A stretch of 58,291 nt of DNA, taken from the NCBI RefSeq assembly GCF_003236385.1, contig NZ_POUA01000004.1, positions 1-58,291 on the forward strand. The letters run 5' to 3'. A program made the position numbers and the translations under genes. The notes beneath the pieces were generated by a model. The model saw only the letters and a program-made list of their open reading frames with translations. It ran no database searches and had not been told where the DNA came from. This document shows positions 37,331-56,023 of the stretch, one piece after another. Source of the DNA: Spongiactinospora gelatinilytica. Lineage in GTDB: Bacteria; Actinomycetota; Actinomycetes; Streptosporangiales; Streptosporangiaceae. The number at the start of each line of letters is the position of its first letter. The first letter of the stretch is position 1.

Positions 37331-37732
37331 ATGGTAAGAGAACTGGACGTGCGCCTTCTTGAGGGCGAGGAACTGTCCAACCAGGAGCGGGCCCGTCGGC
37401 TCGTTCCGAAACTTAGGGCCCTGGCCGATGAGAACCGGGCGGTTTTGGCGCTCCTGATCGCTGAACGCCCTCGCACCGTCAGGGAATTGCAAGACGCGAC
37501 CGGGATGAGTCAGACGCTTGTCAGCCATCATCTGCGGCCGCTCCGTGAGCAGGGGCTTGTAAAAGTCATACCGCGAGGGCGCTCGAACGTCTACACCCTC
37601 TGCTGTGAAGAACTGGGAACGCCGGTCCGCTGGCTCGCGTCGCTGGCGGCCCTCACTCCTGAAGGAGCCCAGGCGTGCTGCCTCAGCGACTTAGACGACG
37701 AGAAAAGGGAGAGTATGGACGATGTCGGATAA
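37331..37732 (+). CDS. ArsR family repressor with two Cys-Cys pairs
   Basis: The product is 133 aa. The HTH is RTVRELQDATGMSQTLVSHH with LRPLREQGLVKVIPRGRSNV as helix and wing. There is no CxCD in the recognition region. Instead Cys91-Cys92 (TLCCEELG) and Cys116-Cys117 (QACCLSD) lie after the wing, a layout suited to binding trivalent or methylated arsenicals. The gene overlaps the permease start by 11 bp, so it controls that gene, and probably the small Cys protein at 40362 through a matching promoter. Confidence 0.87.
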   Translation: MVRELDVRLLEGEELSNQERARRLVPKLRALADENRAVLALLIAERPRTVRELQDATGMSQTLVSHHLRPLREQGLVKVIPRGRSNVYTLCCEELGTPVRWLASLAALTPEGAQACCLSDLDDEKRESMDDVG

Positions 37733-40361: not shown

Positions 40362-40529
40362 ATGGTGAAGCTCCTAGGCAAGCTCTTCGGCGGCGGCGAG
40401 AAAGAGGAACAGCAGCTGAGCAGTTGCTGCGGCTCCGTCAACGTGACGGCTGAAGAGGAAACGGTCGAGGCTCAGGTCGAGCCACAGGCCGAGCCGACTC
40501 CGGCACCGGTTTCACAGACGTCGCGCTAG
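40362..40529 (+). CDS. 55-aa Cys-Cys protein of ArsP-type loci
   Basis: ATG 40362 follows GGAGA by 8 nt. The sequence begins MVKLLGKLFGGGEKEEQQLS then SCCGSVNVTAEEE, with Cys22-Cys23, and continues as an acidic, Pro-rich tail. Short proteins with an amphipathic KLLGKLFG start and an SCC motif occur next to DUF318/ArsP permeases, possibly as a metalloid-binding partner or chaperone; I cite this from memory. The shared promoter motif supports co-regulation with arsP. Confidence 0.6.
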   Translation: MVKLLGKLFGGGEKEEQQLSSCCGSVNVTAEEETVEAQVEPQAEPTPAPVSQTSR

Positions 40530-40882
40530 CGCTCTTCCTGCGCCGCACAATATGCAGAAAGCGTGTGGCCCTGCTAGCCGTTTGACCTCGGTGCGCGGCG
40601 GCCGGGGTTTCGGCTGGGAGGGCCACTGCGTATCGGCCTTGGGCCTGACCCCGACGAGCGCCCCCAGCCGACCGCTTGGCCCATACCAGAGGATGCCTCA
40701 TCGACCTCGAGCCAGCGGCGTTCTGTTAGGCGGTGCCGGAAGGCTCCCCCGTCTGCCGCTGGCTACCAGCGAGCGAATGCGAGTATCGAAGTTATGGCCT
40801 GCCTTGCTTCGCCTTTTCTGTATCACCGCACACTTCCCTCGATCGAGTCCCAGAGCCGACTGTTAAATGCAGAGAGGGTAGT
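40530..40882. other. 0.35-kb spacer, no gene seen
   Basis: No conserved frame. It contains C-rich and G-rich tracts and no convincing promoter for the thioredoxin-fold gene that follows, which may be read from the 40142 promoter. Confidence 0.35.
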
Positions 40883-41452
40883 ATGGTATTCACCTATTCG
40901 TTCATGGTCCCCCTCGGAACCCCTGTTCCGGACTTCAGCCTGCTCGCTGTCGATGGCCGTAAAGTGGGCGTCGCCGACCTCGCCGACGCCTCCGCTCTCC
41001 TGGTCGTCTTTCTTTCCAACCGCTGCCCGTACGTGCTGCACATCGAAAGGCAGTTCGCTCACTTTGCTGATCAGTACCACGGCCGAGGGCTGGCTACGGT
41101 GGGTATCTGCTCCAGCGACACAGAAAGTCACCCAGAAGACCGGCGCCAGGGCCTGGCTCAGCAGGCGCTTCGCGCGGAGTTCGGATTTCCCTACCTGATC
41201 GATGGGGGCCAGGAGGTTGCCAAAGCCTTCCGGGCCGCCTGCACTCCGGACTTCTTTTTGTACGGCAGCGACCGGCGACTGGCCTACCGTGGCCAATTCG
41301 ATAGCGCACGCCCGGGTAACGGTGTTCCTGTGGAGGGTAGTGTTCTGCGGGCGGCGGTCGAGAATGTGCTGGCCGGTCGCCCTGTCCCGGAACCCCATAC
41401 GCCCAGCGGCGGATGCAATATCAAGTGGCGTCCAGGCAACGAACCCGCCTAA
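40883..41452 (+). CDS. thioredoxin-fold (AhpC/TSA-like) protein
   Basis: ATG 40883 has AGAGAGGG upstream; product 189 aa. The fold is TPVPDFSLLAVDGRKVGVAD, then ALLVVFLSNRCPYVLHIERQ with the single redox Cys48 in the CPY motif (no CxxC), then FRAACTPDFFLYGSDRRLAY. The conserved C-terminal block PSGGCNIKWRPGNEP characterises a thioredoxin-family subgroup of unknown substrate. It is convergent with the phnE-like gene and stands at the edge of the biosynthetic set. A role in reducing arsenic species is possible but unproven. Confidence 0.8.
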   Translation: MVFTYSFMVPLGTPVPDFSLLAVDGRKVGVADLADASALLVVFLSNRCPYVLHIERQFAHFADQYHGRGLATVGICSSDTESHPEDRRQGLAQQALRAEFGFPYLIDGGQEVAKAFRAACTPDFFLYGSDRRLAYRGQFDSARPGNGVPVEGSVLRAAVENVLAGRPVPEPHTPSGGCNIKWRPGNEPA

Positions 41453-41587: not shown

Positions 41588-43309
41588 TCAGGCCAGTAGT
41601 CGCCGGATGGTCATCGCGAAGATTTCGAGTGCGAAGACCACCGCGAAGATGGCCAGAACAATCCAGGTGATCACTTCGTATTCTCGGGTGTGGGAGGCCT
41701 GTAGGAGGTAGAAGCCGACGCCTCCTCCGCCGACGAGGCCCAGCAATGTCGCGTACCGAATATTGACGTCGAGCTGATACAGAGTCGCGCCTATGATCGC
41801 TCGTGCGGCCTGCGGCAAGATCGCTGTGAAATATATCTGTGTCCGTGAGGCGCCGACCGCGTTCAGGGCTTCGAGGGGGCCATGATCGACCTCTTCCAGG
41901 GAGTCGGCCACGAGTTTGCCCAGGAGGCCGATGGACCCGATGGCCAGAGCGAGCGCGCCGGCGACCGGACCGAGACCGATGATCACGACGAACAGAATGG
42001 CGAGCACCAGCTCGGGTATTCCTCTTACCAGCAAGACGATCCCGCGGAAGGTGGTGTGGATCATTCGATGGCCGGAAACGTTGCGCGCGGCGAGCGATCC
42101 TAGGGGGATCGCCAGCAACGCGCCGATGAGCATCGAGGCGAGGCCGATCTCGAGGGTGACGAAAAGTGCTCGCAAAAGGTCCGGAGCCACACCCGCCGTT
42201 CCGGGGGGCCAGAACAGGCCAAGCGTCGTCAGGAAGCCGCGCAGGCCGCCGCTGAGGCTGAGGTCCAGTGCACCGCTGCGGAGCAATGACCATAGAACAA
42301 CGGCCACCGCGATCGCGGCGTAGACGATCCGCCGAGCGCGGTCGAAGGACCACGCAGGAAAGATCGGCCGGTCCGCCGTAGGGAGTGTCGAGAGCTGTAC
42401 CGGGGCGGGCGCATAGAACGACCGGCGGCGCAGCAGCGCGGGCAGCCGACGCAGGGCGCGTTGTTCCGCTGATGTCGTCATGCGCATTAGAGACCGGCGC
42501 ACGACTGCGGACAACAGCTCAGAAAGGAGGCACAGGAGGAGCAGAATGACAGCCCAAACGATCCCGAGCCCGAACTGCAGCGCTCCGAAAGCCTTCGACA
42601 TTTCAAAGCCTATGCCGGTGACGCCGACGAATCCCAAGAGTGCCGAGTGACGCAGGTTGATGTCGAATCGATGCAAGCCGATCGCGATGAATGCCGGTAA
42701 CGCTTGTGGGAGGATCGCGGTGCTGAGCTGCTGGCCTCGACTGGCGCCGATGCTGCGCAGGGCCTCGCGGGGCTTATCACTGACCTGCTCGAGCGCGTCC
42801 GCATAGAGTTTGCCCACCATTCCGACCGAGTGCAGGCCCATGGCGAGGATGCCGGGGACCACGCCCAGGCCGAACAGCCGCACGAATAGGATGGCCAAGA
42901 CGATGTCCGGGACGGCGCGTGCCGCCACGATCACGCCCCGCGAGCCGAGGCGAAAGCCGGTGCCGCGCGTGGTGTTGGCCGCGGCCCACACGGCCAGTGG
43001 AAAACTGATGGCCACCGACAACAGGGTGGCCAGCAGGGTAGTGGCCAGGGTGAAGCCGGTCTGCTGGACCACCTCTTCGCCGCTGGGCAGTTCAGGAGGC
43101 CAGATTCGATCAATGAAGCCGATCGCATTGGCGTAGCCGTGCACCACCGTGGCGAAATTGATTTCCAGGTGGATGACCGACGCGGCGCCGAGACCCAGAA
43201 GAGCCAGCAACAAGGCGCCGACCGTGGCACTGCGACGGCGCCCCGGGCGTCTGCGCCGCGGGGTTTGCGCCACTGACGAAGTTGCCGACAACTCGGCCGA
43301 TGCCGTCAT
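41588..43309 (-). CDS. PhnE-like ABC permease, two permease domains fused
   Basis: ATG 43309 overlaps the phnC-like stop by 4 bp (ATGA). The product is 573 aa: two PhnE-type BPD_transp_1 domains in tandem (about 35-270 and 310-573), each with six TM segments and an EAA loop (EALRSIGASRGQQLSTAILP and EALNAVGASRTQIYFTAILP). A normal PhnE is about 270 aa and dimerises, so this gene encodes the full channel in one chain. The Pro-rich, positively charged joint near 270-300 is cytosolic. With PhnC and PhnD it would import a phosphonate-like oxyanion, here plausibly an arsonate or arsenate ester. Confidence 0.88.
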   Translation of the reverse strand: MTASAELSATSSVAQTPRRRRPGRRRSATVGALLLALLGLGAASVIHLEINFATVVHGYANAIGFIDRIWPPELPSGEEVVQQTGFTLATTLLATLLSVAISFPLAVWAAANTTRGTGFRLGSRGVIVAARAVPDIVLAILFVRLFGLGVVPGILAMGLHSVGMVGKLYADALEQVSDKPREALRSIGASRGQQLSTAILPQALPAFIAIGLHRFDINLRHSALLGFVGVTGIGFEMSKAFGALQFGLGIVWAVILLLLCLLSELLSAVVRRSLMRMTTSAEQRALRRLPALLRRRSFYAPAPVQLSTLPTADRPIFPAWSFDRARRIVYAAIAVAVVLWSLLRSGALDLSLSGGLRGFLTTLGLFWPPGTAGVAPDLLRALFVTLEIGLASMLIGALLAIPLGSLAARNVSGHRMIHTTFRGIVLLVRGIPELVLAILFVVIIGLGPVAGALALAIGSIGLLGKLVADSLEEVDHGPLEALNAVGASRTQIYFTAILPQAARAIIGATLYQLDVNIRYATLLGLVGGGGVGFYLLQASHTREYEVITWIVLAIFAVVFALEIFAMTIRRLLA

Positions 43310-44121
43310 CCTGGCGAGCCAAGCCGCGTCGGCGCCTGCAACGTCATCGGCTCCGGCGACCCGTTGTTGTAGACCTCCATCACAGTGTCGGCGTTCATGA
43401 GGCAGGCAGGAGTGTCGAGCACGATCGCACCGCGCTGGAGACCAATGATCCTGTCCGCGCACGAGAGGGCCAAGTCCAACTGGTGCAGGCTGCTGACCAG
43501 CGTCATTCGCTGTTCGCGAACGATGTCCTGCAGCAGGCCCATGACCATCTTGGCGCTGTCGGGATCAAGGGACGCCACGGGTTCGTCGGCCAGCAGGATC
43601 GCCGGACGCTGCATCAGCGCCCTGGCGATCGCCACACGCTGCTGCTGCCCACCGGATAACGTATCGGCACGCTGGAAGGCTTGATCGGGCAAGCCGACGC
43701 GATCAAGATGTTGCAGGGCTTCGCGCCGTAGGCGTGAGGAATAGGCCAACAGGCCCAGGCGTGGCCCGCGAAGGCGGCCAAGGGCGCCGCTGCACACGTT
43801 TTCCAGGACACTTAGCTGACCAACGAGGTTGAACTGCTGGAAAATGAACCCGATATGACGGCGCAGGGAGCGTAGGGTGCGTTCCCGTGCGGTTTCCACA
43901 TCGGTGCCCAGGACGGACACCTTCCCAGAAGTCGGCTTGTGGAGCCCAGAGATATGCCGGAGCAATGTGGACTTCCCCGCTCCGGAGCTTCCTAATAGAA
44001 CACAGAACTCCCCCGGCGGAACAGTGAAGGTGACATCCCGCAGTCCGACAATTCTCTTATCAAAGGTTTTGGTCACTCGATCTAATGATATAACTGACGC
44101 ATTTCGCTCGCTCGCGGTCAT
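43306..44121 (-). CDS. phnC: PhnC-like ABC transporter ATPase
   Basis: The product is 271 aa from ATG 44121; GTG 44127 is a less likely start because GAGGT stands just before the ATG. Walker A is LLGSSGAGKSTLLRHISGL, the Q-loop FIFQQFNL, the signature LSGGQQQRVAIARALM, Walker B AILLADEPVASLDPDSAKMV and the H-loop SSLHQLDLA. LRHISGLHKPTSGKVSVLG is typical of phosphonate and phosphate-ester importers. It is the energising subunit for the fused permease that overlaps its 3' end. Confidence 0.9.
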   Translation of the reverse strand: MTASERNASVISLDRVTKTFDKRIVGLRDVTFTVPPGEFCVLLGSSGAGKSTLLRHISGLHKPTSGKVSVLGTDVETARERTLRSLRRHIGFIFQQFNLVGQLSVLENVCSGALGRLRGPRLGLLAYSSRLRREALQHLDRVGLPDQAFQRADTLSGGQQQRVAIARALMQRPAILLADEPVASLDPDSAKMVMGLLQDIVREQRMTLVSSLHQLDLALSCADRIIGLQRGAIVLDTPACLMNADTVMEVYNNGSPEPMTLQAPTRLGSPG

Positions 44122-44181
44122 GTACACCTCAACGCACTATGGGCGCGGAACAACTGTACGAACGGGATGGCTTGTAAGCTG

Positions 44182-45090
44182 CTAGTCGGCTCGCGGCCGG
44201 CACGCCTCCGCCTTGGTGAGCTTGCATATCCGGCGGATGGGGTCGTAGAACTTGTCTTCGACCTTGGTGAATCCCCAGTAGCCGGCGATGTCGTCGACAC
44301 CGAGGCTGTCGGCATTGCCACGCTGCAATATGGCGGTGGTGATGGCGGTGCGCAGCTCGGGTTTGAGCCTGTTGGATATCGCCAGCGGCGAGTTGACCAC
44401 CGGCGGCGACTTCCAGAGAATGGAATAGTCTTTTATGTCGATGTCCTCCTGAAATGGCAGGACCTCCTCAAAGAGCAGGTCTCTGATCGCAGCCGCGTCA
44501 CAGTCGCCGTCGCGGACGGCGAGAAGGGAGGCATCGTGGCCGCCGGTGAACGTTTCCTTGTAGCTTCCCGGCTTAATCCCGGCCTCAAGCAGGCCCGCCA
44601 GCGGATAGAGGCGGCCGGAAGTTGAGTTGGGGTCGACGAAGCAAATGTGCTTACCGCGCAGGTCGCGCAAGGTCTTCAATCCGCTGTCGGCCCGAGCAAC
44701 GATATAGCCGTGATAGCTCGGGGTGCCGCCTTCTTTATAAAGCTCTGCTGCGATAGGTGAGATGTCGACGCCCGAGTCTTTTGCCAGTACGTAGCTGAAC
44801 GGACCGTACATCGCTATGTGTACGGTGCCCGCGCGCTGCCCTTCGACCACGGCCGCGTAGTTGGTCATGACCTCGAGTTGTACCCTTTTCCCCGAGGCCT
44901 TGGACACCAGATCGGCGAGGGGCGCATATTCGGCCTTCAAGGTGGCGGCATTCTCGTTAGGGATCAGTCCCATGACGATGGTGTCCGGATCGGACAGGTT
45001 GGTGCTCGAACCGCCACAGGCCGCCGTGGCGATGGTAGTCAAGGCACAGATCATTGCGAGGCGGACGGTGTGCGATAACGGTGAGGACAT
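44182..45090 (-). CDS. phnD: PhnD-like substrate-binding lipoprotein
   Basis: The product is 302 aa. The signal peptide ends in lipobox ATAAC with Cys25 as lipid anchor. The PhnD/PBP2 fold shows DTIVMGLIPNENAATLKAEY, then LADLVSKASGKRVQLEVMT, NYAAVVEGQRAGTVHIAMYG and FVDPNSTSGRLYPLAGLLEA. Homologues bind phosphonates, phosphite or hypophosphite; in this setting arsenate or an arsonate is the likely ligand. The gene begins 4 bp after the decarboxylase gene, so uptake and biosynthesis are co-expressed. Similar PhnCDE sets accompany the Streptomyces organoarsenic cluster. Confidence 0.88.
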   Translation of the reverse strand: MSSPLSHTVRLAMICALTTIATAACGGSSTNLSDPDTIVMGLIPNENAATLKAEYAPLADLVSKASGKRVQLEVMTNYAAVVEGQRAGTVHIAMYGPFSYVLAKDSGVDISPIAAELYKEGGTPSYHGYIVARADSGLKTLRDLRGKHICFVDPNSTSGRLYPLAGLLEAGIKPGSYKETFTGGHDASLLAVRDGDCDAAAIRDLLFEEVLPFQEDIDIKDYSILWKSPPVVNSPLAISNRLKPELRTAITTAILQRGNADSLGVDDIAGYWGFTKVEDKFYDPIRRICKLTKAEACRPRAD

Positions 45091-45094
45091 TCGG

Positions 45095-46231
45095 TCATCC
45101 TTCGGACGACGCGGACTCGGTCGTGTTGTTCAGGGTGGCGGTGAAGCGGCTCCGCAGAGACTGTGGGGAATGGGCGCTGGTTGCACGTGGTGGTAGCGGG
45201 TTCTGTCGCCGCCGGGTGGGGATTACGCACATATGTGGGCCAGGTGATGTGAGTGCCGCAGTGACCGCCTCGGTCACTTCAGGCAGAGTGCGGCACGTTC
45301 GCGTGCTGCGGTATCCGCATCCTGCGGCGACCTGGTCGAGGCGAGTCGTGGCCGATGTGGTGGCCTGGGAGCCGGTCGACTCGTGGACGCCGTTGTCTAG
45401 CACGATGTGGACGAGGTTGGGCGGGTTCAGGAAACCGATGCTCGAAAGCGCTCCAAGATGCATCAGCGCCGCGCCGTCGCCGTCCAGCACGATGACCTTC
45501 CGCTGCAGATCGGCCAGGGCGACGCCCAGGGCGATCGAGGAGGCGTGGCCCATGGAGCCTTGCATATAGAAATTGGCCGGCCGGTCGTCGATCCCGAACA
45601 GCTCCCGGCCGGTATACCCAGTGGTGGCGATGATGGGAGCATCGCCGGCGAGCTTGGCGATGACGCGTACGGCCTCACCACTGTCCAGTCGGCCGTCCTG
45701 GTCAATGTGGTTCTCGGTGACCCTGGCAACGACGCCCTTCTCAACGCAGATGAAGGGAGCGTGCCCCGCCGACATCGAGCCGATGGCGGTGTTGAGAAGT
45801 TCCCGGAACCGCTCTTCGTCATCGCCGGCCCGCAGGGTCCAGTTCGGGACCCCCAGCATGTCGAGGTAGGGCCGGGTAGTCGGGCCCATGATGGCGTGCT
45901 GGGGCTCATCGTCAGCGGGATCTGGCTGTCCGCGCAGGCTCACAAAGGTGAGGACCGGGATGCGGTAGGTCATGACCAGCGAGGTCAGAGGGTTGATCAG
46001 ATTACCTAGTCCGGAGTTCTGCAGCATGACGTAAGCGCGGCATCCGGCCAGTGCCGCGCCGACGGCCACAGCGAGCGCATTTCCTTCGTTGGCTGCGGGG
46101 ACGTAGCGTCCTGGCGTTCGGCTCAGTAGTGCGATCGGCCCGCCGAAGAAGGAGCAGGGAACGCCACTGGCCAGACTGAACCCCCGCTGTTCCAGTTCGT
46201 CGCAGAACAGTTCGGCAGAAATCATCGTCAT
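45095..46231 (-). CDS. phosphonopyruvate-decarboxylase homologue (ThDP), predicted arsonopyruvate decarboxylase
   Basis: The product is 378 aa, the normal length for Ppd/Fom2-type single-chain decarboxylases. The N-terminal pyrimidine-binding half is GFSLASGVPCSFFGGPIALL and YVPAANEGNALAVAVGAALA with the catalytic Glu. The C-terminal pyrophosphate half has VLDGDGAALMHLGALSSIGF, then LNPPNLVHIVLDNGVHESTG, the GDG-x(24-27)-N motif. It would decarboxylate a 3-arsono- or 3-phosphonopyruvate to the corresponding acetaldehyde, pulling an unfavourable mutase reaction forward. It is placed after the mutase (24-bp gap) and before phnD (4 bp). The last 35 residues are a degenerate Arg-rich tail. Confidence 0.9.
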   Translation of the reverse strand: MTMISAELFCDELEQRGFSLASGVPCSFFGGPIALLSRTPGRYVPAANEGNALAVAVGAALAGCRAYVMLQNSGLGNLINPLTSLVMTYRIPVLTFVSLRGQPDPADDEPQHAIMGPTTRPYLDMLGVPNWTLRAGDDEERFRELLNTAIGSMSAGHAPFICVEKGVVARVTENHIDQDGRLDSGEAVRVIAKLAGDAPIIATTGYTGRELFGIDDRPANFYMQGSMGHASSIALGVALADLQRKVIVLDGDGAALMHLGALSSIGFLNPPNLVHIVLDNGVHESTGSQATTSATTRLDQVAAGCGYRSTRTCRTLPEVTEAVTAALTSPGPHMCVIPTRRRQNPLPPRATSAHSPQSLRSRFTATLNNTTESASSEG

Positions 46232-46255
46232 GCTCTTTCTCGCGAAACTGATGCC

Positions 46256-47818
46256 TCACCCTTGTCGGATGGGTTGGGCGGAGTCATCGACCAGCTCGGG
46301 CGCCGACATGGCCGCGGGGATGGGCAGGCCAAGTAGCCGAAGGACCGTGGGACCGACCGAGCAGATCGCCGCCTCACCACCGCTCGGAATCTTCAAGCGC
46401 TCACCGCGCACGGAGATGAGCGCGCAGGGTACGCGGTTGGTGGTGTGACCGCCATAGCCGATAGCGGGTGCGCCGTCAGTCGGTGAGGTGAGCATTTGCT
46501 CGGCGTTTCCGTGGTCACCCACCAGTAGAGTCCAGCGCCCGCCCGCGAAGGCAGTGGAGCAGATCTGGGCGGCGGCACGGTCGACCGCCTCCACCGCCTT
46601 TCGTGTGGCATGGTAAGCCCCGGTGTGACCGACCACATCCATGTTCGCCAGGTTCGCCACCACCAGGCCGACATCGGGTCGGGCCGCGGCCTCGATGACC
46701 GCCTGAACGAGCCCGCGAAGATTCATCTCGGGATGGTCCTGAACCGGCCCCGTTGCGGCCGGCGGAACGAGTACATGCTCCTCCTGTTGCCGGGGCCGCG
46801 CGTCCCGGCCGTTCAGGTAGAAGGTGACGTGTTCGAATTTCTCCCGCTCGGCTATCCGGACGGACCGTACTTCGGAGTTTTCGAGGGCGTCGGCCAGGCC
46901 GCCCGAGGCATCGGCGCGTGGCACGAGGGCGGGAATGCCGGCATGGGTGTCGTAGTGGCCAAGGCTCAGTAGCCGGACACGGCTGCGGGCGGTGCTGGCC
47001 AGGAGTACGGCCACCATGTCCGCGAGCGGTGCCATTCGATCGCTTCGGAAGTTCATGAACACGATGGCGTCGCCGTCCCGAACCGGGGCCGGCCCACCGG
47101 TCGCACCGGTTATCACCGTCGCAGTGACAGAGCCGTCGGGCGCTCCGCCGCGCAGCGCGTCTTCGGCATTGGGGGCGCTGCGTTCGGCCCTGCCGTCCAG
47201 TACCAGAAGGGCCGCCTGGGCGGTCAAGTGGTCGGCACCGCTTTTGTCCATGGCGAAGTTGCGCCCGATCACGGTGGCGACGGCGCCCACTCCGGATACT
47301 TTGACGATTTCGTTCAGACGCGATAAGTACAAAGCGCCGGTTCCGTCTGGTACGTCACGTCCGTCCGTGATCGCATGGATCACAACCCTTTCCAGGGCAT
47401 GCGCTCGAGCGGCACGCAGGACCTCGGCGATGTGGTCGATGTCAGAGTGGATCCGGCCGTCAGAGATCAACCCGACGAGGTGCAGTGTTCCGCGCTGCTG
47501 GGCCAGTCTCACGCAGGCTTCCCGCAGCAGGGGATGGGATCGTAGGGCTCCTGACTTCACCTGCTGCTCTACCCGGAGACTGTCGTATTCGATGGGTCGC
47601 CCGGCGCCCATCACCATATGTCCGATCTCGGAATTGCCTACGGTGCCCTCTGGAAGACCCACTGCGCCTCCGGAGGCGTCCAGGAGTACTCCGCGCCTGC
47701 CGAGGACCAGCCCTTCGAGGAAGGGGCACTCCGCCTCACTGATCGCGTTGCCGGGCGCAGGCGGCGCGTGTCCCCACCCGTCGAGGACGAGCAGGACTCC
47801 TGGCATGCGGGCCCTCAT
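46256..47818 (-). CDS. cofactor-independent phosphoglycerate-mutase homologue, predicted arsenoenolpyruvate mutase
   Basis: ATG 47818 overlaps the AroA-like stop (ATGA). The product is 520 aa, the full length of the alkaline-phosphatase-fold iPGM family. Metal and catalytic motifs are conserved: VLDGWG (Asp13), GNSEIGH with nucleophile Ser63, DGRDVPDGTG, MNFRSDRMAPLAD, NMDVVGHTGAYHA, GDHGNAE and GHTTNRVP. Small departures from glycolytic iPGM (SDGRIHSDIDH for SDGGVHSHIDH, GDHGNAE for ADHGNAE) suggest a changed substrate. In the Streptomyces organoarsenic model this homologue turns arsenoenolpyruvate into arsonopyruvate, forming the C-As bond. A housekeeping role is unlikely in an operon with AroA-like and Ppd-like genes. 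Confidence 0.88.
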   Translation of the reverse strand: MRARMPGVLLVLDGWGHAPPAPGNAISEAECPFLEGLVLGRRGVLLDASGGAVGLPEGTVGNSEIGHMVMGAGRPIEYDSLRVEQQVKSGALRSHPLLREACVRLAQQRGTLHLVGLISDGRIHSDIDHIAEVLRAARAHALERVVIHAITDGRDVPDGTGALYLSRLNEIVKVSGVGAVATVIGRNFAMDKSGADHLTAQAALLVLDGRAERSAPNAEDALRGGAPDGSVTATVITGATGGPAPVRDGDAIVFMNFRSDRMAPLADMVAVLLASTARSRVRLLSLGHYDTHAGIPALVPRADASGGLADALENSEVRSVRIAEREKFEHVTFYLNGRDARPRQQEEHVLVPPAATGPVQDHPEMNLRGLVQAVIEAAARPDVGLVVANLANMDVVGHTGAYHATRKAVEAVDRAAAQICSTAFAGGRWTLLVGDHGNAEQMLTSPTDGAPAIGYGGHTTNRVPCALISVRGERLKIPSGGEAAICSVGPTVLRLLGLPIPAAMSAPELVDDSAQPIRQG

Positions 47819-49155
47819 CGGCCGCCCCGCAGGCCTTCGAAGCGCTCCCAGAAACTGGGAAAAGACTTGGTCACGCATGCCGGTTCTTCGATGACCACTC
47901 CTGGGGTACGCAGTCCAGCGATGGCGAACGCCATGGCGATGCGGTGGTCGTCGTAGGTGTGGATCCAGGCGCCTTTCGGCTCAGCGCCGCCGTGGATCGT
48001 CATCGTGTCGATGGTCGTGTCCACCCTCACGCCCATCTTGCCCAGTTCCGTCGCCACGGCCGCGATCCGATCGCATTCCTTGAAACGCAGGTTCCCGATA
48101 CCGGTTATGTGCGTACGCCCTTTGGCATAAGCCGCGACAACGGCCAGAGTAGGGACGACATCGGGCATGCGGGTCATGTCGATGTCGATACCGCGCAGGG
48201 CGTCCCCTTCCACGGTGATGCCGTCGGCACCGGCCACGCAAGTGCACCCCATGTCGGTCAACGCCTTGATCAGCCCAACGTCACCTTGCCGAGAATCTGG
48301 ACCGATCCCAGGGATGGTCACCTTACCGCCGAGAATCGCCGCGGCCGCCACGAAATACGACATCGCCGAGGCGTCGGGCTCGACGGTGATGTCCCCGCCG
48401 AGGTACTGCTGCCCCGCTGGGACGGCGAATGACGAGTAGCCGTTGACGGAGATCTCACCGATGCCGGCCTGCCGCATGGCGGCGATCGTCATGTCCACAT
48501 ACGGTCCTGAGACCAGATCGCCGTCTATATGCAGCTCGAGTCCCTGTTCTGCCACAGGAGCGCAAACAAGCAGGCTGCTGGTGAACTGGCTGCTCACCGT
48601 GCCGGAAATGTGAGTTCCTCCGCCACGCCAAGCCGGTCCCCACACTTCGATCGGAGGTGAGTCATTGCCGTGGAGTGCCCGCGCACGCACCCCGAGCGCG
48701 CGCAGCGCTTCCAGCAGGTGCCCCATCGGCCGTTCACGCATCCGTTGATTACCGGTCAGCACTGTCCGTCCGTCGGCCAGGGCCGCCATCGTGATCAGGA
48801 ACCGGATTGGAGTCCCGGCGTTGCCCATGTCGATCTCTTGTGCGGGTGCGCGCATGGGTCGGCCGTTCGGCGAGACCGTGATGCTGGGGACGTCGGGCCG
48901 TAGTTCCACATCGACGTGCCCCAGCCTGCGCAGGGCCTCGGCCAGAAGGATGGTGTCCTGGGAGTGAAGCGCGTTGTGCAGTGTGGTCGGTTGGGCGCAC
49001 AGGCCGGCGATCGCCAGGAATCGGTTGGTGTAGCTCTTGGAGCCGACCACCTCCACGACCGTGTCCAGGCCGGTCAGGGGAGTGATCGGGTAATGGGGAA
49101 GGTCGAGGATCGATGTACCTGAGGTACCTTCTGGGGTTCGGTCCATCCTGGCCAT
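47815..49155 (-). CDS. EPSP-synthase (AroA) homologue, predicted arsenoenolpyruvate synthase
   Basis: The product is 446 aa. EPSP-synthase signatures are intact: GSKSYTNR (Lys40-Ser41), GNAGTPIRFLITMAALADG, RMRERPMG, SSQFTSSLLVCAP, EPDASAMSYFVAAAAILGG, LRFKECDRIAAVATELGKMG, YDDHRIAMAFAIAGL and VTKSFPSFWERF. The chromosomal aroA normally sits elsewhere. Association with the mutase (4-bp overlap) and decarboxylase marks this as the specialised paralogue proposed to condense PEP's enolpyruvyl group with arsenate. Substitutions such as KSYTNR for KSVSNR lie in the shikimate pocket. A resistant or extra EPSP synthase is the alternative, disfavoured by context. Confidence 0.88.
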   Translation of the reverse strand: MARMDRTPEGTSGTSILDLPHYPITPLTGLDTVVEVVGSKSYTNRFLAIAGLCAQPTTLHNALHSQDTILLAEALRRLGHVDVELRPDVPSITVSPNGRPMRAPAQEIDMGNAGTPIRFLITMAALADGRTVLTGNQRMRERPMGHLLEALRALGVRARALHGNDSPPIEVWGPAWRGGGTHISGTVSSQFTSSLLVCAPVAEQGLELHIDGDLVSGPYVDMTIAAMRQAGIGEISVNGYSSFAVPAGQQYLGGDITVEPDASAMSYFVAAAAILGGKVTIPGIGPDSRQGDVGLIKALTDMGCTCVAGADGITVEGDALRGIDIDMTRMPDVVPTLAVVAAYAKGRTHITGIGNLRFKECDRIAAVATELGKMGVRVDTTIDTMTIHGGAEPKGAWIHTYDDHRIAMAFAIAGLRTPGVVIEEPACVTKSFPSFWERFEGLRGGR

Positions 49156-49201
49156 CCTTTGGTCGTACCGGTCGCGAAAGGTCCGCGGTGGCTGCGGGAG
49201 G

Positions 49202-49975
49202 CTACGGCCGCCGATGCACTTTGTGCTGGGCCGCCTGCGCGCGGGGGCGCAGAACGAGTAAGTCGACGTTGACGTATGACGGTCGGGTTATGGCCCAGGC
49301 GATGGCGTCCGCCACGTCGTCGGCGACCAGTGGATGGTCCACACCGGCGTAGACGGCGGCTGCCTGCTCTGCGTCTCCCCGGTACCGGTTCAACGAGAAC
49401 TCTTCGGTGTGAACCATGCCGGGGGCGATGTCGATGACACGGACCGGTTCCCCACATAGTTCCAGGCGCAGAGTCGCGGCTAGAACACGTTCGCCGTGCT
49501 TCGCGGCACTGTAGCCCCCGCCGCCCTCATAGACGGTGAACGAGGCCGTCGAGGACACGATGACGATCGTTCCATCACCGCTGGCGATAAGGTACGGCAG
49601 CAATGCCTGCGTCATGTGCAGCGCGCCCAATACGTTTACCTCGTACATCGCACGCCAGTCCGATGGCAGTGCATCGGAAATCGGCTCGGTCCCGAAGGCA
49701 CCACCAGCATTGTTGATCAGGACATCACACCGGTCCAAATTGCCGGCCATGGCCTTGACAGCTGCTTCGTCGGTGACATCCACCAGCAGCGCCTCCGCTT
49801 GCCGCCCCTCCGCAACCAGCTGCCGTACGAGAAACTCCAGGCGGTCGATTCGCCGGCCGACGAGTAAGACCCGATAACCTTCATTCGCCAACCTGACGGC
49901 CGTCGCCGCTCCGATTCCGCTACCTGCTCCGGTTATAAGCGCGGTGGCCGGCCCGTTCTCCGGGCTCTCCCTCAT
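49202..49975 (-). CDS. short-chain dehydrogenase/reductase of the biosynthetic operon
   Basis: ATG 49975 shares one base with the upstream gene's TGA. The product is 257 aa. Cofactor motif LITGAGSGIGAATAVRLANE, with VGRRIDRLE pointing to NADP(H); NNAGGAFG; catalytic VSSTASFTV with GGYSAAKHG (Ser-Tyr-Lys). It ends in a basic tail (AAQHKVHRRP). It lies 46 bp upstream of the AroA-like gene. The natural role in this pathway is reduction of the arsono- (phosphono-) acetaldehyde made by the decarboxylase to a 2-hydroxyethyl product, the job done by a different family (FomC-type) in fosfomycin biosynthesis. Confidence 0.85.
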   Translation of the reverse strand: MRESPENGPATALITGAGSGIGAATAVRLANEGYRVLLVGRRIDRLEFLVRQLVAEGRQAEALLVDVTDEAAVKAMAGNLDRCDVLINNAGGAFGTEPISDALPSDWRAMYEVNVLGALHMTQALLPYLIASGDGTIVIVSSTASFTVYEGGGGYSAAKHGERVLAATLRLELCGEPVRVIDIAPGMVHTEEFSLNRYRGDAEQAAAVYAGVDHPLVADDVADAIAWAITRPSYVNVDLLVLRPRAQAAQHKVHRRP

Positions 49976-50424
49976 CAATTCGAAACACCATGTGTCGGCG
50001 AGGAGTCGTGATCGGGTGACGTGCCGCCCATGCCTTGATTGCTGGCCTGAGCAATCCACACATGCGCGCCCGGCTGTAGCCGGAATACCGTGGGCTCATC
50101 TGCGGAACCTGTGGTCTCCACCTGGCCCCCTACGAAAAGCAAGTGCGCCAGTCCGGCGACGACATCCGGGAAATATTGATCGACCGTGAACCCTTGGGCG
50201 CTCGCCGACTGATTGTGGACTCCGAGGATCGGGCCACCATAATCGAGTGGCGACCACAATATCGCGCGTAGCCCGGCGCCGATGTCGACATGGGTCCTGT
50301 CCGCCGATCCGATGGATTCGTAGTGGGTTCGGCCCGCCACACACGCCCTGATGTAGGCGTCTGACAGGGGATCGCCGGCCGAGGCGCCGAGTTGGCCTCG
50401 TGCCGATCTAGTGGAATCGGCCAT
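49975..50424 (-). CDS. unknown 149-aa protein, first gene of the core biosynthetic operon
   Basis: ATG 50424 has GAGG about 9 nt upstream. I do not recognise a family. Readable features are a polar N-terminus (STRSARGQLGASAGDPLSDA), a beta-rich middle (VDIGAGLRAILWSPLDYGGP, ILGVHNQSASAQGF, VAGLAHLLFVGGQVETTG), a terminal FRLQPGAHVWIAQA and a Ser/His tail. It has no TM segment or signal and one Cys. Overlap of its stop with the SDR start (TGATG) shows co-translation, so it probably serves the pathway, perhaps as a small cupin- or GAF-like ligand binder. That last point is speculation. Confidence 0.7.
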   Translation of the reverse strand: MADSTRSARGQLGASAGDPLSDAYIRACVAGRTHYESIGSADRTHVDIGAGLRAILWSPLDYGGPILGVHNQSASAQGFTVDQYFPDVVAGLAHLLFVGGQVETTGSADEPTVFRLQPGAHVWIAQASNQGMGGTSPDHDSSPTHGVSN

Positions 50425-50772
50425 CTTCGAATACCTCGCGATCAACGGTGGTCGTTCCGATGCTCATGGTAATTCAATGTCCCGCGTACGTGCATCCCAG
50501 GATCGTCGCGTTACCGAACTGTATCGGTTGGCCCATGATTGGAGGGGAGCACGATGCCACTCGGCCCTTTTTAGACAGCAAAAGATGGGCAAGCCGCTAC
50601 ATGCGTATGAAACCTCTCATCCCGCCTATAACGCCCGGCCTTGCTAAAGTCGCTAGCACTTAATAGATTTGTCGCATTCAGGTGCCTTTGCTAGCCAATC
50701 GTCCCTTCTGACAACAGAGCCCCCCAAGAAAGAGGGATCTAGCAATTCATCCGCGACAAGGGCGAACTGACA
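50425..50772 (-). other. 0.35-kb intergenic region, likely promoter of the core operon
   Basis: No gene is seen. It is AT-richer than average around 50600-50680, and on the minus strand TTATAG near 50630 could be a -10, but no good -35 stands at the right distance. It separates the two minus-strand units. Confidence 0.35.
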
Positions 50773-50808
50773 CTCCAGTGCCTTGGCGGATGGCTCAAGG
50801 CACTGGAG
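50773..50808 (-). terminator. 13-bp perfect stem terminator after the HppE gene
   Basis: CTCCAGTGCCTTG (50773-50785) pairs perfectly with CAAGGCACTGGAG (50796-50808) across a 10-nt loop, 9 bp past the HppE stop. It closes the kinase-HppE unit and separates it from the core operon. Confidence 0.8.
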
Positions 50809-50817
50809 GTCTCATGA

Positions 50818-51411
50818 TCAGAAGTTGATCGAGATGACCTTGCCAGGGCCGGAGCCCTTGGTCGTCGTCAGGGTGTGCGGGACGCCGGGCGAGATGTAGA
50901 AGCTACTCCCCTGGGGCAGTATGACCTCCCGGGGGTTAGCCGGGTCGCCCCACTTGAAGTGGATGTCGCCCTCCATGCAGTAGATCACCTCGTGAGCGTC
51001 GTGTCCGACGTTGAAGGCGGCCGCGTCCGGGTCGTCGACGTTCACCTCCAGCAGGAGGGGCACGAGCTTGGGCACGGTCCGCGTCCGCACCAGGCAGTGG
51101 TAGGTGTAGTAGTTGGTCCCAGCCCGCAGTCCCTTGATGATGGGGTTGTCCTGCGGTAACTGGTAGCTGACGCCGTCGTCGAGGTCACTGACGAATTCGG
51201 GAGTGAGTTCGGCCAACGACGTCCCGAGCACGCCGGCGATGGCGGTCAGGGTGTCCAGGGTGAGGGGGGCGCCCTTGTTCTCCTCCAGCGCCTCGATGTC
51301 CTGGGTGGGCTTTCCGAGCGCGGCCGCGAACGCCGCTCGGTCCATCTTGATGTGCTCCCTGCGTGCCTTGATCTTGTCGCCGTAGGTCTCTTCCAGGACT
51401 GGTGCGGTCAT
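50818..51411 (-). CDS. HppE-like (S)-2-hydroxypropylphosphonate epoxidase homologue (Fom4 family)
   Basis: ATG 51411 has AAAGGA 8 nt upstream. The product is 197 aa (Streptomyces wedmorensis HppE is 198). It aligns over its whole length at an offset of one: a helical HTH-like domain (1-75; IKARREHIKMDRAAFAAALG), then DLDDGVSYQLP and the cupin. Iron ligands His137, Glu141 (GHDAHEVIYC) and His179 (PGVPHTLTTTKG) match His138/Glu142/His180. Substrate residues Lys22, Arg96, Tyr102, Tyr104 and Asn134 match Lys23, Arg97, Tyr103, Tyr105 and Asn135. HppE uses Fe(II) and peroxide to close an epoxide on a 2-hydroxyalkylphosphonate. Here the substrate is inferred to be a hydroxyalkyl-arsonate. It follows the FomA-like gene by 110 bp. 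Confidence 0.92.
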   Translation of the reverse strand: MTAPVLEETYGDKIKARREHIKMDRAAFAAALGKPTQDIEALEENKGAPLTLDTLTAIAGVLGTSLAELTPEFVSDLDDGVSYQLPQDNPIIKGLRAGTNYYTYHCLVRTRTVPKLVPLLLEVNVDDPDAAAFNVGHDAHEVIYCMEGDIHFKWGDPANPREVILPQGSSFYISPGVPHTLTTTKGSGPGKVISINF

Positions 51412-51521
51412 TGGTAGATTCCTTTCATCTCTGTCACGAGACGGTCTGGAAGTTCGGACTGTACGTGTCGGCAAGCGATCTTGCCTGAACCTACGAAATT
51501 CGCCGCTATCACCCCGCTTCT

Positions 51522-52412
51522 CTACTCGGCGGTGCTGACTGCTGCGGCCGGAGAGCGCGCGATCCGGGTACAGTGGAGCTTGTTGGACCACCCGCTGTAC
51601 GGTGAGAGCAGATATGCCCACTCGGAGTCTTGCGCAACTCCCTCAAGAATGAAGCACTCCGCGCCCTCCGCTGCACATCGAATGAGCGCGTCCACCTTGG
51701 TCTTGAAGCCCCCTGTGGTGTCCCATTCACTGTTGGTCCACAGTGCTTCATAGGCTGCCTGGGGGGTCATGGGGTCCACGTAGCGGAGCGTTTCCTTTCC
51801 GCCCGGTCCTCCCAGCACAATGCCCGGGACATCAGTGAAGCTCGCGACCCGCAGGGGTGTCTGCAAGGCACGTACAAGGAATTCTGGTACGCGGTCACTC
51901 GACAGGCCGTGCAGGTTTCCATTGGCGTCCAAGACGCTGTCGCCCGATAGGATCGGAAGCGCGCCGCTCGCCAGGACCCGCTCGACGATATCGGCCCTCA
52001 CGCGGAACGACAGATCGTCATCCAATGTCGCCATCGCGCCAAGCTGGAGCGGAAACGCCCTTACCCCGAGACCTACCAAAGCTTGCGTCCATGCCCACCG
52101 GACGTCCGCGAGCGCCTTGGTCAAGCCGATTGCGGCGAAGGGGTCTGCCGGATCGATTCCTCGTAGTGCGCCGTGCCCGATGGCACCGCCTCCTGTGATA
52201 AGGACGACCTGGCCGGGAAAACGCTCATGAAGGCTGGAGATCACTCGAGCGAACCTAGCAATACGACCTTTATCCAAGCTGCCGGCGACACTCTTATCAG
52301 AGAAAAGACTGCCACCGATCTTCACCGCAAGCACGCGATCTGACGCCGAGCTCTCACGGGCGCGCTGCGTGGAGCGCCATGTTCTATCGACAGCCGGACT
52401 ACTCAACCCCAT
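51522..52412 (-). CDS. FomA-like kinase (fosfomycin-kinase branch of the amino-acid-kinase fold)
   Basis: ATG 52412 gives 296 aa (TTG 52421 is possible). Conserved blocks match FomA rather than generic acetylglutamate-type kinases: VLAVKIGGSLFSDKSVAGSL, LITGGGAIGHGALRG with the substrate-side His, FPLQLGAMATL, GALPILSGDSVLDANGNLHG, LSSDRVPEFLV, SFTDVPGIV, NSEWDTTGGFKTKVDALIRC and AEGAECFILEG. FomA phosphorylates the phosphonate of fosfomycin with ATP for self-protection. Here it would phosphorylate an arsonate or phosphonate product. Isopentenyl-phosphate kinase is the nearest alternative fold, but the EWDTTGG and LSSDRVPE blocks favour FomA. An N-terminal extension of about 28 aa is extra. 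A CCAATG-3 nt-CATTGG hairpin (52418-52432) overlaps the ribosome site. Confidence 0.9.
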   Translation of the reverse strand: MGLSSPAVDRTWRSTQRARESSASDRVLAVKIGGSLFSDKSVAGSLDKGRIARFARVISSLHERFPGQVVLITGGGAIGHGALRGIDPADPFAAIGLTKALADVRWAWTQALVGLGVRAFPLQLGAMATLDDDLSFRVRADIVERVLASGALPILSGDSVLDANGNLHGLSSDRVPEFLVRALQTPLRVASFTDVPGIVLGGPGGKETLRYVDPMTPQAAYEALWTNSEWDTTGGFKTKVDALIRCAAEGAECFILEGVAQDSEWAYLLSPYSGWSNKLHCTRIARSPAAAVSTAE

Positions 52413-53394
52413 CGCCTCCAATGCTTCATTGGAATGAAATGAAAGGCAGCCCGCACGACAGGGTTGACAATCGCGCAGAGGCAGTCACGTCGAGTGATTA
52501 TTGTCGACCTGGGGTGTTTACTGCCACGTACGCTAGCGGCTCATATTGAGTGCGTCTAGGGGGGTGAGGAAGAGATTTTCGAACTCCACGAAAAGTGTGT
52601 ATGGCCAGCGATTATGGACACCTATTAATATCTATTATTGACATCAGCAACTGCTATTGCAACCATGTGTGATCGAACGAATCCAAAGTGCAGCCGAATT
52701 GGGGCGGCTCGGGAACCGTCTGCTGAAGGGCCGAGCGGTCTCCGAGACGGGCCAACGCGCGTCTGTGCCGGCGTAGGCGGCAGCAGTGGCTGCAGGCCCC
52801 CAGCGCGGGGCCGGTCTCTAACGTACACGGGATTGTCTGGTGAACTCGCCCATGTTGATGTGTGGGCGTACAGCGACTCCGCACTGGGAAGCCAGGCCGA
52901 GCCGGCCTTGCCGGCAGAGCCGTGGATAGAGATCCTGTGCGTGATGGATCGGCCGGAAGTACCGCACCCCACCCGAAGAGTGTGTGTCGTCGGGGTGCCC
53001 CCAAGCCGAGGCTCGTCGGCTCGCCTGCGAGCGACTGCGACCGAGAATCAGTTGAACCGTTATGCCCGTGTGGCCCGCTGCGGGCGGCTGATCGGTTCCC
53101 CGCATGGTGGTCAACGGACGCCGCAGTGATGAATGCGCAGGCTAAGGCCTGCGCAGTGTGTAAGTGTATGGGAATTTCATCGCTCACTGGCATGATCAAG
53201 CTCCGATTACACGATATGGGCCTGGTCACGGTGATACTGGGACAGGCCGGTGGGGGGTGGACACGATGTTCGCGGCATCATGGGCAGGAAGGCGTGATCC
53301 GGGAGCCCGCCGGATCAGCGTTCACTCTGTCCGGGCAGGATTTTCCAGGGCACGAGCCCGCCCCTCATGTGGCTGCTGAGCCATGTATCTGAGT
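52413..53394. other. 1-kb region upstream of the kinase, promoter candidate but no recognised gene
   Basis: On the minus strand TTGCTG, 17 nt, TAATAG (near 52642-52614) is a plausible promoter for kinase-HppE, in markedly AT-rich DNA (52560-52660). The plus strand has an open frame over about 52640-53130 with biased composition but no motif I know, so it is not called. DNA at 52750-53130 may be relic coding sequence. Confidence 0.4.
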
Positions 53395-54084
53395 TCAGGC
53401 ATCGGAGTCCTTGTGTCGGAGACGTACGACAGGGGCGAGGCGGTCGATGCGATCGGCGATGTCGGCGAAGGCGCTATCAAAAGCGGCGTCATCGTCGATG
53501 GGAACCGGATCTGGAATGGACCAATGCAGGCGTCCCTGTCCGCGTAGTTGCTCATGCACGTTGTCGCAGACGGTGATGAGGAGATCACCGGGCCCCAGGA
53601 CATCGTCCATGTGCGCGGTGGAGGCCTTGTCCATGGACAGGCCATGGCGTTGAGCGACGGCGATGGCACGGGGGTGAACCCGCTCGGCGGGTATCGTGCC
53701 GGCTGAGACCGCCGGAACAAGACCTTTGCTGTCCCACAGCGCGGCGGCGAGCTGAGAACGGGCCGAGTTGTGCGTGCAGATGAACAGGACCCGTGGCGCA
53801 TAGTATGTCTGGCTTAGCAGCGGAGCGGTGAGGGTGCTTGTGGTCAGTCGCAGGTAGGTTCGGCGCCGATCGCCCTCAGATGGGCGCCGCTCGATGAGCC
53901 CGGCATCCTGCAGAGTGGTGACATGGTGGGCGAGTAGATTGGCAGGCAGGCCGATCAATGCGCCGAGCTCGCTGGGCGACGCGTCACTCACGGCCAACCG
54001 TTCAATGATCGCCAACCGTGCGGGCTCTCCCAGCGCGGCGTGCACACGCGCTCGTTTCACCAGTTCCGCATCATATTCAACCAT
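53395..54084 (-). CDS. ArsR-ArsC fusion: repressor domain plus arsenate reductase domain
   Basis: The product is 229 aa. Residues 1-90 form an ArsR winged helix (HAALGEPARLAIIERLAVSD, SPSELGALIGLPANLLAHHV, TTLQDAGLIERR). Residues 95-229 form an LMW-phosphatase-type reductase with P-loop CTHNSARSQLAAAL (nucleophile Cys103), the acid loop IPDPVPIDDD, and VCDNVHEQ. No CxCD motif is in the ArsR part. Fusion of sensor and enzyme would let arsenate reduction occur on, or release from, the operator; such fusions are known in actinobacteria and elsewhere. ATG 54084 abuts the palindrome ATTGAATCAAT, its likely site. Confidence 0.9.
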   Translation of the reverse strand: MVEYDAELVKRARVHAALGEPARLAIIERLAVSDASPSELGALIGLPANLLAHHVTTLQDAGLIERRPSEGDRRRTYLRLTTSTLTAPLLSQTYYAPRVLFICTHNSARSQLAAALWDSKGLVPAVSAGTIPAERVHPRAIAVAQRHGLSMDKASTAHMDDVLGPGDLLITVCDNVHEQLRGQGRLHWSIPDPVPIDDDAAFDSAFADIADRIDRLAPVVRLRHKDSDA

Positions 54085-55150: not shown

Positions 55151-55264
55151 TGCCGCAGGTTCGCGTCCGGCCGAGTGTCGCCCCAGCCGACTTCCTGTGG
55201 CCGCTTGACTGATTCGACTAACATCTATTTAGGTGGGCTTCTCATCGGCTCCAGGGAGGTAGCC

Positions 55265-56023
55265 ATGGTTCAGTCGAACGATCTACGCGAGCAGGTCCGT
55301 ACCCGCTACGCCGCCGCTGCACAGGCCGTCGCGGCGGGTAACTCCACCGGATGCTGCGGTACCGGAGGGTGTGACCCCCTCGAGATCACCGATCCCGTAT
55401 ATGGCAGCGGCTTGTACGGCCCGGCCGAGCGGCGCGGCCTGCCTGCCGATGCGGTGACTGCGAGCCTCGGGTGTGGAAACCCCGTCGCGGTCGCCGAAAT
55501 CCGGGAAGGCGAAACGGTATTGGATCTCGGATCGGGCGGTGGCATCGACGTCCTGCTGTCCGCCCGGCGAGTAGGACCCGGCGGCAAGGCCTACGGCTTG
55601 GACATGACCGACGAGATGCTCGCCCTGGCCCGGGCGAATGCCGCAAAGGCCGGTGCGGACAACGCCGAGTTCCTCAGGGGCACCATCGAGGACATTCCGC
55701 TGCCGGACGACAGCATCGACGTTGTCATCTCCAACTGCGTGATCAACCTATCGGTCGACAAGACAGCTGTTTTCGCCGAGACGTTCCGTGTCCTGCGCGC
55801 CGGAGGCCGGTTCGGCGTCTCGGACGTGGTGGCCGAGGATCGCCTCTCCCCTCAAGAGCGAGCTGCCCGCGGGGACCACGCCGGCTGCATCGCCGGAGCC
55901 CTGTCCACCAGCGAATACCATGAGGGGCTGGCCGCCGCTGGATTCATCGACATTGAGATCACCCCCACCCATCAGGTCGCCGACGGAATGCACTCGGCCG
56001 TCATCAAGGCACTCAAAGCCTGA
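55265..56023 (+). CDS. arsM: arsenite S-adenosylmethionine methyltransferase
   Basis: ATG 55265 has AGGGAGG upstream; product 252 aa. SAM motif I is [20 protein letters not shown] (85-104), followed by [16 protein letters not shown]. Cys70 (SLGCGNP), Cys158 (ISNCVINLS) and Cys208 (HAGCIAGAL) correspond to the As(III)-binding cysteines of characterised ArsM; the 50-residue distance between the last two is the same as in Cyanidioschyzon ArsM (Cys174/Cys224). An extra N-terminal TGCCGTGGC cluster (Cys30, 31, 36) is present. It methylates trivalent arsenic to mono-, di- and trimethyl species. It is divergent from the acr3 remnant. Confidence 0.92.

Follow-up and report, generated by a model that had tools for sequence, protein, structure and literature searches.

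What would a bacterium make with a gene set in which enzymes of arsonate synthesis stand beside tailoring enzymes of the fosfomycin type? The question is raised by a 58,291-nucleotide stretch of Spongiactinospora gelatinilytica contig NZ_POUA01000004.1 (the window, meaning the whole stretch analysed), in which ten open reading frames (ORFs), all on the minus strand, span positions 41588-52421 and encode, in order of transcription, a FomA-like kinase, an HppE homologue, a small protein (ORF8), an SDR reductase, AroA-like, iPGM-like and Ppd enzymes, PhnD, PhnC and a double PhnE (Table 1). Families were assigned with Pfam and NCBIfam profiles and by sequence matches in the PDB. All three confirmed the first-pass annotation, which had described this ten-gene set with coordinates that proved right: the AroA-like/iPGM-like/Ppd-like trio and the PhnCDE-like transport genes were upheld by their profile scores, and the HppE and FomA homologues by best PDB matches to Streptomyces wedmorensis HppE (1zz6/4j1x, E 2e-59) and FomA (3d40, 8.5e-74). 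The start of the HppE gene had to be moved, however, from 51621 to 51411 on the basis of alignment with the solved HppE, and a Cys-Cys peptide, the conserved ORF8 protein and the recurrence of the set in other genomes had been overlooked.

Gene content, conserved catalytic residues, recurrence, linkage to arsenic (ars) genes and the absence of a phosphoenolpyruvate (PEP) mutase were observed directly. There is good support for assigning the set as an arsonate cluster that carries tailoring enzymes of the fosfomycin type, and the product would probably be a small arsenic compound resembling fosfomycin. The best explanation, in which our confidence is evenly balanced, is that the set makes a small arsonate which its fosfomycin-type enzymes convert to oxiran-2-ylarsonic acid. 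Arsenate would enter through the Phn-like transporter (a Pst-like one elsewhere), and the AroA-like enzyme would transfer to it an enolpyruvyl group, probably that of 5-enolpyruvylshikimate 3-phosphate (EPSP); the iPGM-like enzyme would convert arsenoenolpyruvate to arsonopyruvate, Ppd would decarboxylate the latter, and the SDR would convert arsonoacetaldehyde to (2-hydroxyethyl)arsonate (2-HEA), as in bisenarsan biosynthesis. HppE would then oxidise 2-HEA, most likely by epoxide closure, to oxiran-2-ylarsonic acid, an arsenic analogue of fosfomycin that would be desmethyl, there being no Fom3-type methylase. The FomA-like kinase may provide self-protection or act transiently, and ArsR, ArsP, ArsM and the Cys-Cys peptide would sense, bind, modify or export arsenicals.

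The proposed arsonate-building core

Biosynthesis of bisenarsan requires bsnM, bsnN and bsnJ each, the disruptants losing the product and being rescued by 2-HEA, and bsnMN homologues are widespread in diverse surroundings (PMC12159101). Compared by its published description rather than by bsn sequences, the bsn cluster of Streptomyces lividans/coelicolor shares with the window its EPSP-synthase-like, phosphoglycerate-mutase-like and phosphonopyruvate-decarboxylase genes as well as ars genes, with 2-HEA as the expected common intermediate (PMC12159101), whereas HppE, the FomA-like kinase and Phn-type transport set the window apart. Since no polyketide synthase for the acyl part of bisenarsan was found among the large window ORFs scanned, only the bsn core is shared and the cluster is not a bisenarsan cluster. 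A 2279-residue ORF considered as a possible polyketide synthase is a phosphoesterase/carbohydrate-binding protein. By homology to bisenarsan, the steps from arsenate to 2-HEA are very likely to run as proposed. Of the route from arsenate and PEP to arsonopyruvate given in the first-pass annotation, the building of an arsonate is supported, whereas PEP as direct donor is at odds with the published proposal, in which the enolpyruvyl group comes from EPSP (PMC12159101).

The trio lies together with ars regulation and resistance genes alongside, and apart from a housekeeping AroA (G000:C101, 41% identical to the cluster AroA) and a strong dPGM (C92, 357 bits) elsewhere in the genome. Alignments showed the EPSP site and the mutase catalytic residues to be intact: the EPSP-binding lysines, arginines, serines, aspartate and glutamate of a solved EPSP synthase are retained in the cluster AroA, as are the metal ligands and the catalytic serine in all 12 iPGMs of the clusters, residues which we take to have these binding and catalytic roles. 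All 12 iPGMs also carry lysine at the canonical Arg191 and have lost the DNRW that follows, which, together with the separate AroA and dPGM, argues against both cluster enzymes being housekeeping copies brought together by chance; although the iPGM-like gene is the sole iPGM found in the genome, we give that explanation hardly any credence. Complementation of housekeeping mutants by the AroA/iPGM paralogues, put forward in the first-pass annotation as a possible refutation, is likewise made unlikely by the separate AroA and dPGM.

The reported absence of PEP mutase and of the Fom3 methylase from the window was borne out by our searches, and a pepM gene elsewhere in the genome, which had been named beforehand as counting against an arsonate product, was looked for and not found in the whole 96%-complete assembly. 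None of the genome's four PF13714 matches has EDKx5NS, and TIGR02320 did not exceed 83 bits in any of the seven cluster genomes tested, in contrast to 297 bits, with the EDKx5NS motif present, in genome G305, whose HppE/FomA cluster (HppE 48%, FomA 46%) served as a phosphonate control. No radical-SAM gene was found in the window, and PF04055 had no match on the contigs that carry the cluster in four draft genomes or, for the complete genome G333, within 400 kb. In the Streptomyces fosfomycin route the methyl group is added by Fom3 ahead of HppE (PMC8158854), so that, with no Fom3-type radical-SAM gene near the cluster, the expected substrate of HppE is unmethylated 2-HEA.

These searches bear on the possibility that the product is a phosphonate, either fosfomycin or desmethylfosfomycin, formed without PEP mutase, the ars genes being accidental neighbours. 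In its favour, the genes for HppE, FomA, Ppd and Phn-type transport belong elsewhere to phosphonate metabolism, arsenate closely resembles phosphate, and a stable phosphorylated product would account for FomA. We nevertheless regard a phosphonate as improbable, since PEP chemistry would need no AroA-like step, the AroA/iPGM pair is tied genetically to an arsenical (PMC12159101), the ars genes recur, as does the Cys-Cys peptide, and no Fom3-type gene lies nearby.

Recurrence of the set and its arsenic surroundings

The set is present in at least seven actinomycete genomes, of four genera (that of the window, four Nocardiopsis, one Streptomyces and G333), and this recurrence excludes a chance neighbourhood. 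When 84,980 species were scanned, each represented by one genome, HppE relatives at 71-78% identity turned up in Streptomyces verrucosisporus and three Nocardiopsis, all four with the same gene set (divided over two contigs in N. lucentensis), and a search of 347 genomes of the order added G333 (HppE 79%) and G124 (72%). Genes are arranged ORF8-SDR-AroA-iPGM-Ppd-PhnD-PhnC-PhnE-peptide-FomA-HppE in Nocardiopsis and peptide-FomA-HppE-ORF8-SDR-AroA-iPGM-Ppd in G333, and the window SDR is 68-77% identical to its counterparts in the other clusters. A genome search for co-occurrence of the trio with HppE had been proposed in the first-pass annotation; among the 347 genomes, cluster-type AroA was found in 11 and HppE of at least 70% in six, and all six lie among the 11 and have the AroA/iPGM pair (hypergeometric 2e-10, a value overstated by the relatedness of the genomes). 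The 48% HppE of G305 is found with PEP mutase instead. HppE is rare, occurring in 1 of 393 sampled Streptomyces (the S. verrucosisporus already known), and a plasmid search with HppE gave just distant matches annotated as regulators. About 68 kb from its cluster, G333 carries a further copy in a state of decay (L050:11466-19115), with the peptide and AroA intact, the C-terminal part of HppE alone, a gapped SDR, remnants of iPGM and Ppd, and a Pst-type transporter.

Five genomes have the AroA/iPGM pair without HppE, showing that the modules are separable, and the window might accordingly hold two unrelated modules side by side, one for arsenate detoxification or 2-HEA and the other an HppE and FomA of fosfomycin-cluster ancestry that are not used with it. 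This we consider very improbable, because all seven HppEs of this clade accompany the trio, the SDR and FomA with their ligands intact, and because the modules co-occur with two AroA/iPGM lineages. S. verrucosisporus has an HppE and an SDR close to those of the window (78% and 73%), and its AroA and iPGM, which adjoin a Pst-type transporter, are of the other lineage, grouping with those of NBC_01708, G218, G045 and G042 (100/100 in both trees). Mapping the HppE label onto the iPGM tree requires two changes on branches that have support; HppE has thus stayed with, or been combined with, two AroA/iPGM lineages, and this speaks for a functional connection.

The arsenic genes that the first-pass annotation had placed on both sides are indeed there, with ArsR and ArsP, ACR3 and ArsC on one side and an ArsR-ArsC fusion, ArsC and ArsM on the other. 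Most cluster copies have ars genes around them, and orthologues of ArsR and ArsP adjoin the cluster in five other genomes (six with that of the window). The Cys-Cys peptide is acidic with an invariant SCCG, and was found in all seven genomes with HppE and the trio as well as in the decayed copy of G333; within the order, matches at E <1e-19 are limited to the six HppE genomes. Its exclusivity to HppE clusters was considered and withdrawn, as a diverged homologue lies in an ars operon of Streptomyces G716 (L102:12131-18043), directly after ArsR-ArsP and beside ArsO, ACR3 and ArsC, with no AroA, iPGM or HppE match within the 30 kb read. From this context the peptide is probably an arsenic-handling peptide that works with ArsP, and it may bind arsenic; the small arsenic-operon protein of the G716 type may be undescribed. 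A conserved ORF8 is shared by six HppE clusters, and relatives of it also lie close to some AroA/iPGM pairs that lack HppE. The AlphaFold model of ORF8 has a beta-rich core (pLDDT 74), and Foldseek favoured, weakly (no match at E 0.001 or below), the C-terminal domains of amylase-family proteins rather than the cupin fold that had been considered.

Other neighbouring sequences were also recorded. The ArsR-ArsP pair is separated from the Cys-Cys peptide by a Mutator-family transposase sequence (39009-39866), and a second, weak Mutator match falls within the ORF at 56085-57275. Between ArsC and ArsM there is a short ACR3-like fragment (54829-55224) without a Pfam match, which clusters with full ACR3. 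A flavin adenine dinucleotide oxidoreductase (33749-35176) has counterparts of 72-84% identity near the AroA/iPGM pairs of G218, G045 and G042 (over 45 residues in G042), and an ArsK-like MFS transporter (32421-33677) recurs near these arsenic clusters. A molybdopterin oxidoreductase recurs beside AroA/iPGM pairs (L024:8602-11211, L051:890-3265, L083:29962-32487 and L067:10892-13237), that of L024 being 69-73% identical to those of L067 and NBC_01708. Identification of these enzymes in two relatives as AioA was rejected, the NCBIfam scores being 328-334 bits for formate dehydrogenase/PhsA versus 67-76 for AioA. Next to the set there is an AhpC/TSA gene, and in G333, too, an AhpC/TSA gene follows Ppd (L049:3843-4412).

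Table 1. Features of the gene set and its surroundings, in window coordinates.
Feature	Position	Strand	Evidence and remarks
ACR3 and ArsC	25.7-27.2 kb (full ACR3 25693-26805)		
ArsR-family regulator, Cys-Cys in C-terminus	37331..37732	+	HTH_5 ArsR
ArsP-family permease (organoarsenical efflux family)	37722..38606	+	PF03773, 169 bits
55-residue Cys-Cys peptide (MVKLLGKLFGGGEKEEQQLSSCCGSVNV...)	40362..40529	+	outside the range of the first-pass annotation
Peroxiredoxin-like (AhpC/TSA) protein	40733..41452	+	Redoxin and AhpC-TSA profiles
PhnE-PhnE fused permease (two permease domains)	41588..43213	-	TIGR01097 434 bits; start uncertain, up to 43462
PhnC-like ATPase	43306..44127	-	TIGR02315 281 bits
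PhnD-like binding protein	44182..45090	-	PhnD 220 bits; TIGR01098 206 bits, PF12974 213 bits
Phosphonopyruvate decarboxylase family (Ppd/BsnJ-like)	45095..46231	-	TIGR03297 362 bits, cut-off 312
iPGM-like mutase (BsnN-like)	46256..47806	-	TIGR01307 372 bits, cut-off 331; family signature
EPSP-synthase-like (BsnM-like, AroA-like)	47815..49155	-	TIGR01356 417 bits, cut-off 287
SDR reductase, closest to YdfG; proposed arsonoacetaldehyde reductase	49202..49975	-	adh_short 162 bits
ORF8, small beta-rich protein	49975..50424	-	conserved; no Pfam or NCBIfam match
HppE-family non-haem iron enzyme (helix-turn-helix + cupin)	50818..51411	-	PDB match, alignment
FomA-like kinase	51522..52421	-	PDB match; start uncertain, 52334 or 52421
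ArsR-ArsC fusion	53395..54084	-	similar genes near four Nocardiopsis clusters
ArsC	54464-54895		
ArsM arsenite methyltransferase	55205..56023	+	PRK11873 298 bits; orthologue beside the G333 cluster

HppE, the kinase and the nature of the product

The window HppE keeps K23, R97, Y105, N135, H138, E142, H180 and N197, and the ten aligned HppEs have H138, E142, H180, R97, Y103, Y105, N135 and N197 in common, so that the 2-His-1-Glu iron site and the phosphonate-binding residues (H138, E142, H180, R97, Y105, N135, N197) are in place, their roles being, as we take them, those in the S. wedmorensis structures. In a tree made without the Pseudomonas row, the long branch of which had spoiled a first one, the cluster-linked HppEs form one group (100/100), distinct from those linked to PepM and from that of S. 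wedmorensis. HppE is likely to act on the arsonate 2-HEA; for epoxidation, rather than another oxidation, the overall case is finely poised.

Several points weigh against the proposed explanation. The known substrate of HppE is a secondary alcohol, (S)-2-hydroxypropylphosphonate, the methyl group of which 2-HEA lacks, and the homologues HEPD and MPnS cleave the C-C bond of 2-hydroxyethylphosphonate, so epoxide formation cannot be assumed. The cluster HppEs carry leucine for F182, cysteine for V146 and valine for L/I193; more fully, Cys146, Thr181, Leu182, Val193 and Ser195 occur in 7 of 7 cluster HppEs and 0 of 3 phosphonate-linked ones, and the ligand-adjacent residues at these five positions thus differ from those of phosphonate HppEs, although they are not known to be required for activity. 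Being near the iron ligands, these positions may bear on the pocket. The co-occurrence P-values, moreover, ignore relatedness, four of the six hits being Nocardiopsis. It is possible, if rather unlikely, that an arsonate is made and that HppE oxidises 2-HEA differently, either by cleaving the C-C bond as HEPD or MPnS does, with hydroxymethyl- or methylarsonate as product, or by dehydrogenating the alcohol: HEPD and MPnS are relatives from the same search that act on the two-carbon type of substrate this pathway would supply, and the five ligand-near positions are fixed differently. On the other hand, the protein is clearly HppE by sequence (204 bits, versus 53 to MPnS and 38 to HEPD) and of HppE length, and a FomA homologue accompanies it, just as fosfomycin clusters have the two together.

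The kinase scored 255 bits against the FomA NCBIfam model (cut-off 550), which is below equivalog level. K9, K18, H58, D150 and K216 are nonetheless kept in 10 of 10 sequences and T210 in 9 of 10, so that the FomA active site (K9, K18, H58, T210, K216, presumably with the roles these residues have in FomA) is present. A phosphorylated arsonate, an arsono-phosphate anhydride, is expected to hydrolyse fast, which also weighs against the proposed pathway and fits poorly with a conserved FomA; masking of the product by the kinase, as put forward in the first-pass annotation, is therefore doubtful. A literature search on hydrolysis of arsono-phosphate anhydrides found no paper. The kinase might phosphorylate another oxygen, act transiently or guard against phosphonates, and its role is the weakest part of the explanation. 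The proposal as a whole, that actinomycetes make oxiran-2-ylarsonic acid without a PEP mutase, with HppE epoxidising 2-HEA while the small Cys-Cys peptide and a FomA put to new use protect the cell, is advanced as tentative.

Known clusters and what the finding may mean

Like the Streptomyces fosfomycin cluster, the set has HppE (Fom4) and FomA homologues, Ppd (Fom2) and an aldehyde reductase step, for which the window SDR replaces the alcohol dehydrogenase FomC; unlike it, it lacks Fom1 (PEP mutase/cytidylyltransferase), which the AroA/iPGM pair replaces, and the radical-SAM methylase Fom3. The AroA/gpmI cluster on a plasmid of Streptomyces sp. NBC_01708 (NZ_CP109189.1) resembles the window in AroA (59%), iPGM (51%), an ORF8-like protein and ars genes, but its transporter is of the Pst type, and the 33 kb read contained no match to HppE, FomA, Ppd or the Cys-Cys peptide. 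The HppE/FomA/PEP-mutase cluster of G305 (L053/L054) shares HppE (46-48%) and FomA (45-46%), whereas it has a PEP mutase with EDKx5NS and phosphoglycerate-kinase-like and semialdehyde-dehydrogenase genes, and no AroA/iPGM pair. This cluster (L053:10360-19998 and L054:1-5667) also contains aminotransferase, semialdehyde-dehydrogenase-like and glycosyltransferase genes, with a second FomA-like gene at L054:11163-12001, and may represent a phosphonate pathway, as yet undescribed, to a product resembling fosfomycin.

To our knowledge few arsenic natural products are known, one of which, bisenarsan, arises by the arsenate/enolpyruvyl route. A literature search retrieved no paper joining fosfomycin or HppE with arsenic biosynthesis, the two primary bsn papers, of 2016 and 2023, being outside its reach, and the combination of arsonate genes with HppE and FomA seems undescribed. 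The genomes located here include public Nocardiopsis and Streptomyces strains, which makes the proposal directly testable. If it is true, the product would be the second of the arsonopyruvate pathway and an arsenic epoxide antibiotic, HppE could be tested on arsenic substrates, and an arsenical aimed at MurA would be suggested; evolution would have rebuilt the pathway of fosfomycin, a clinical antibiotic, around arsenic, with phosphorus swapped for arsenic throughout.

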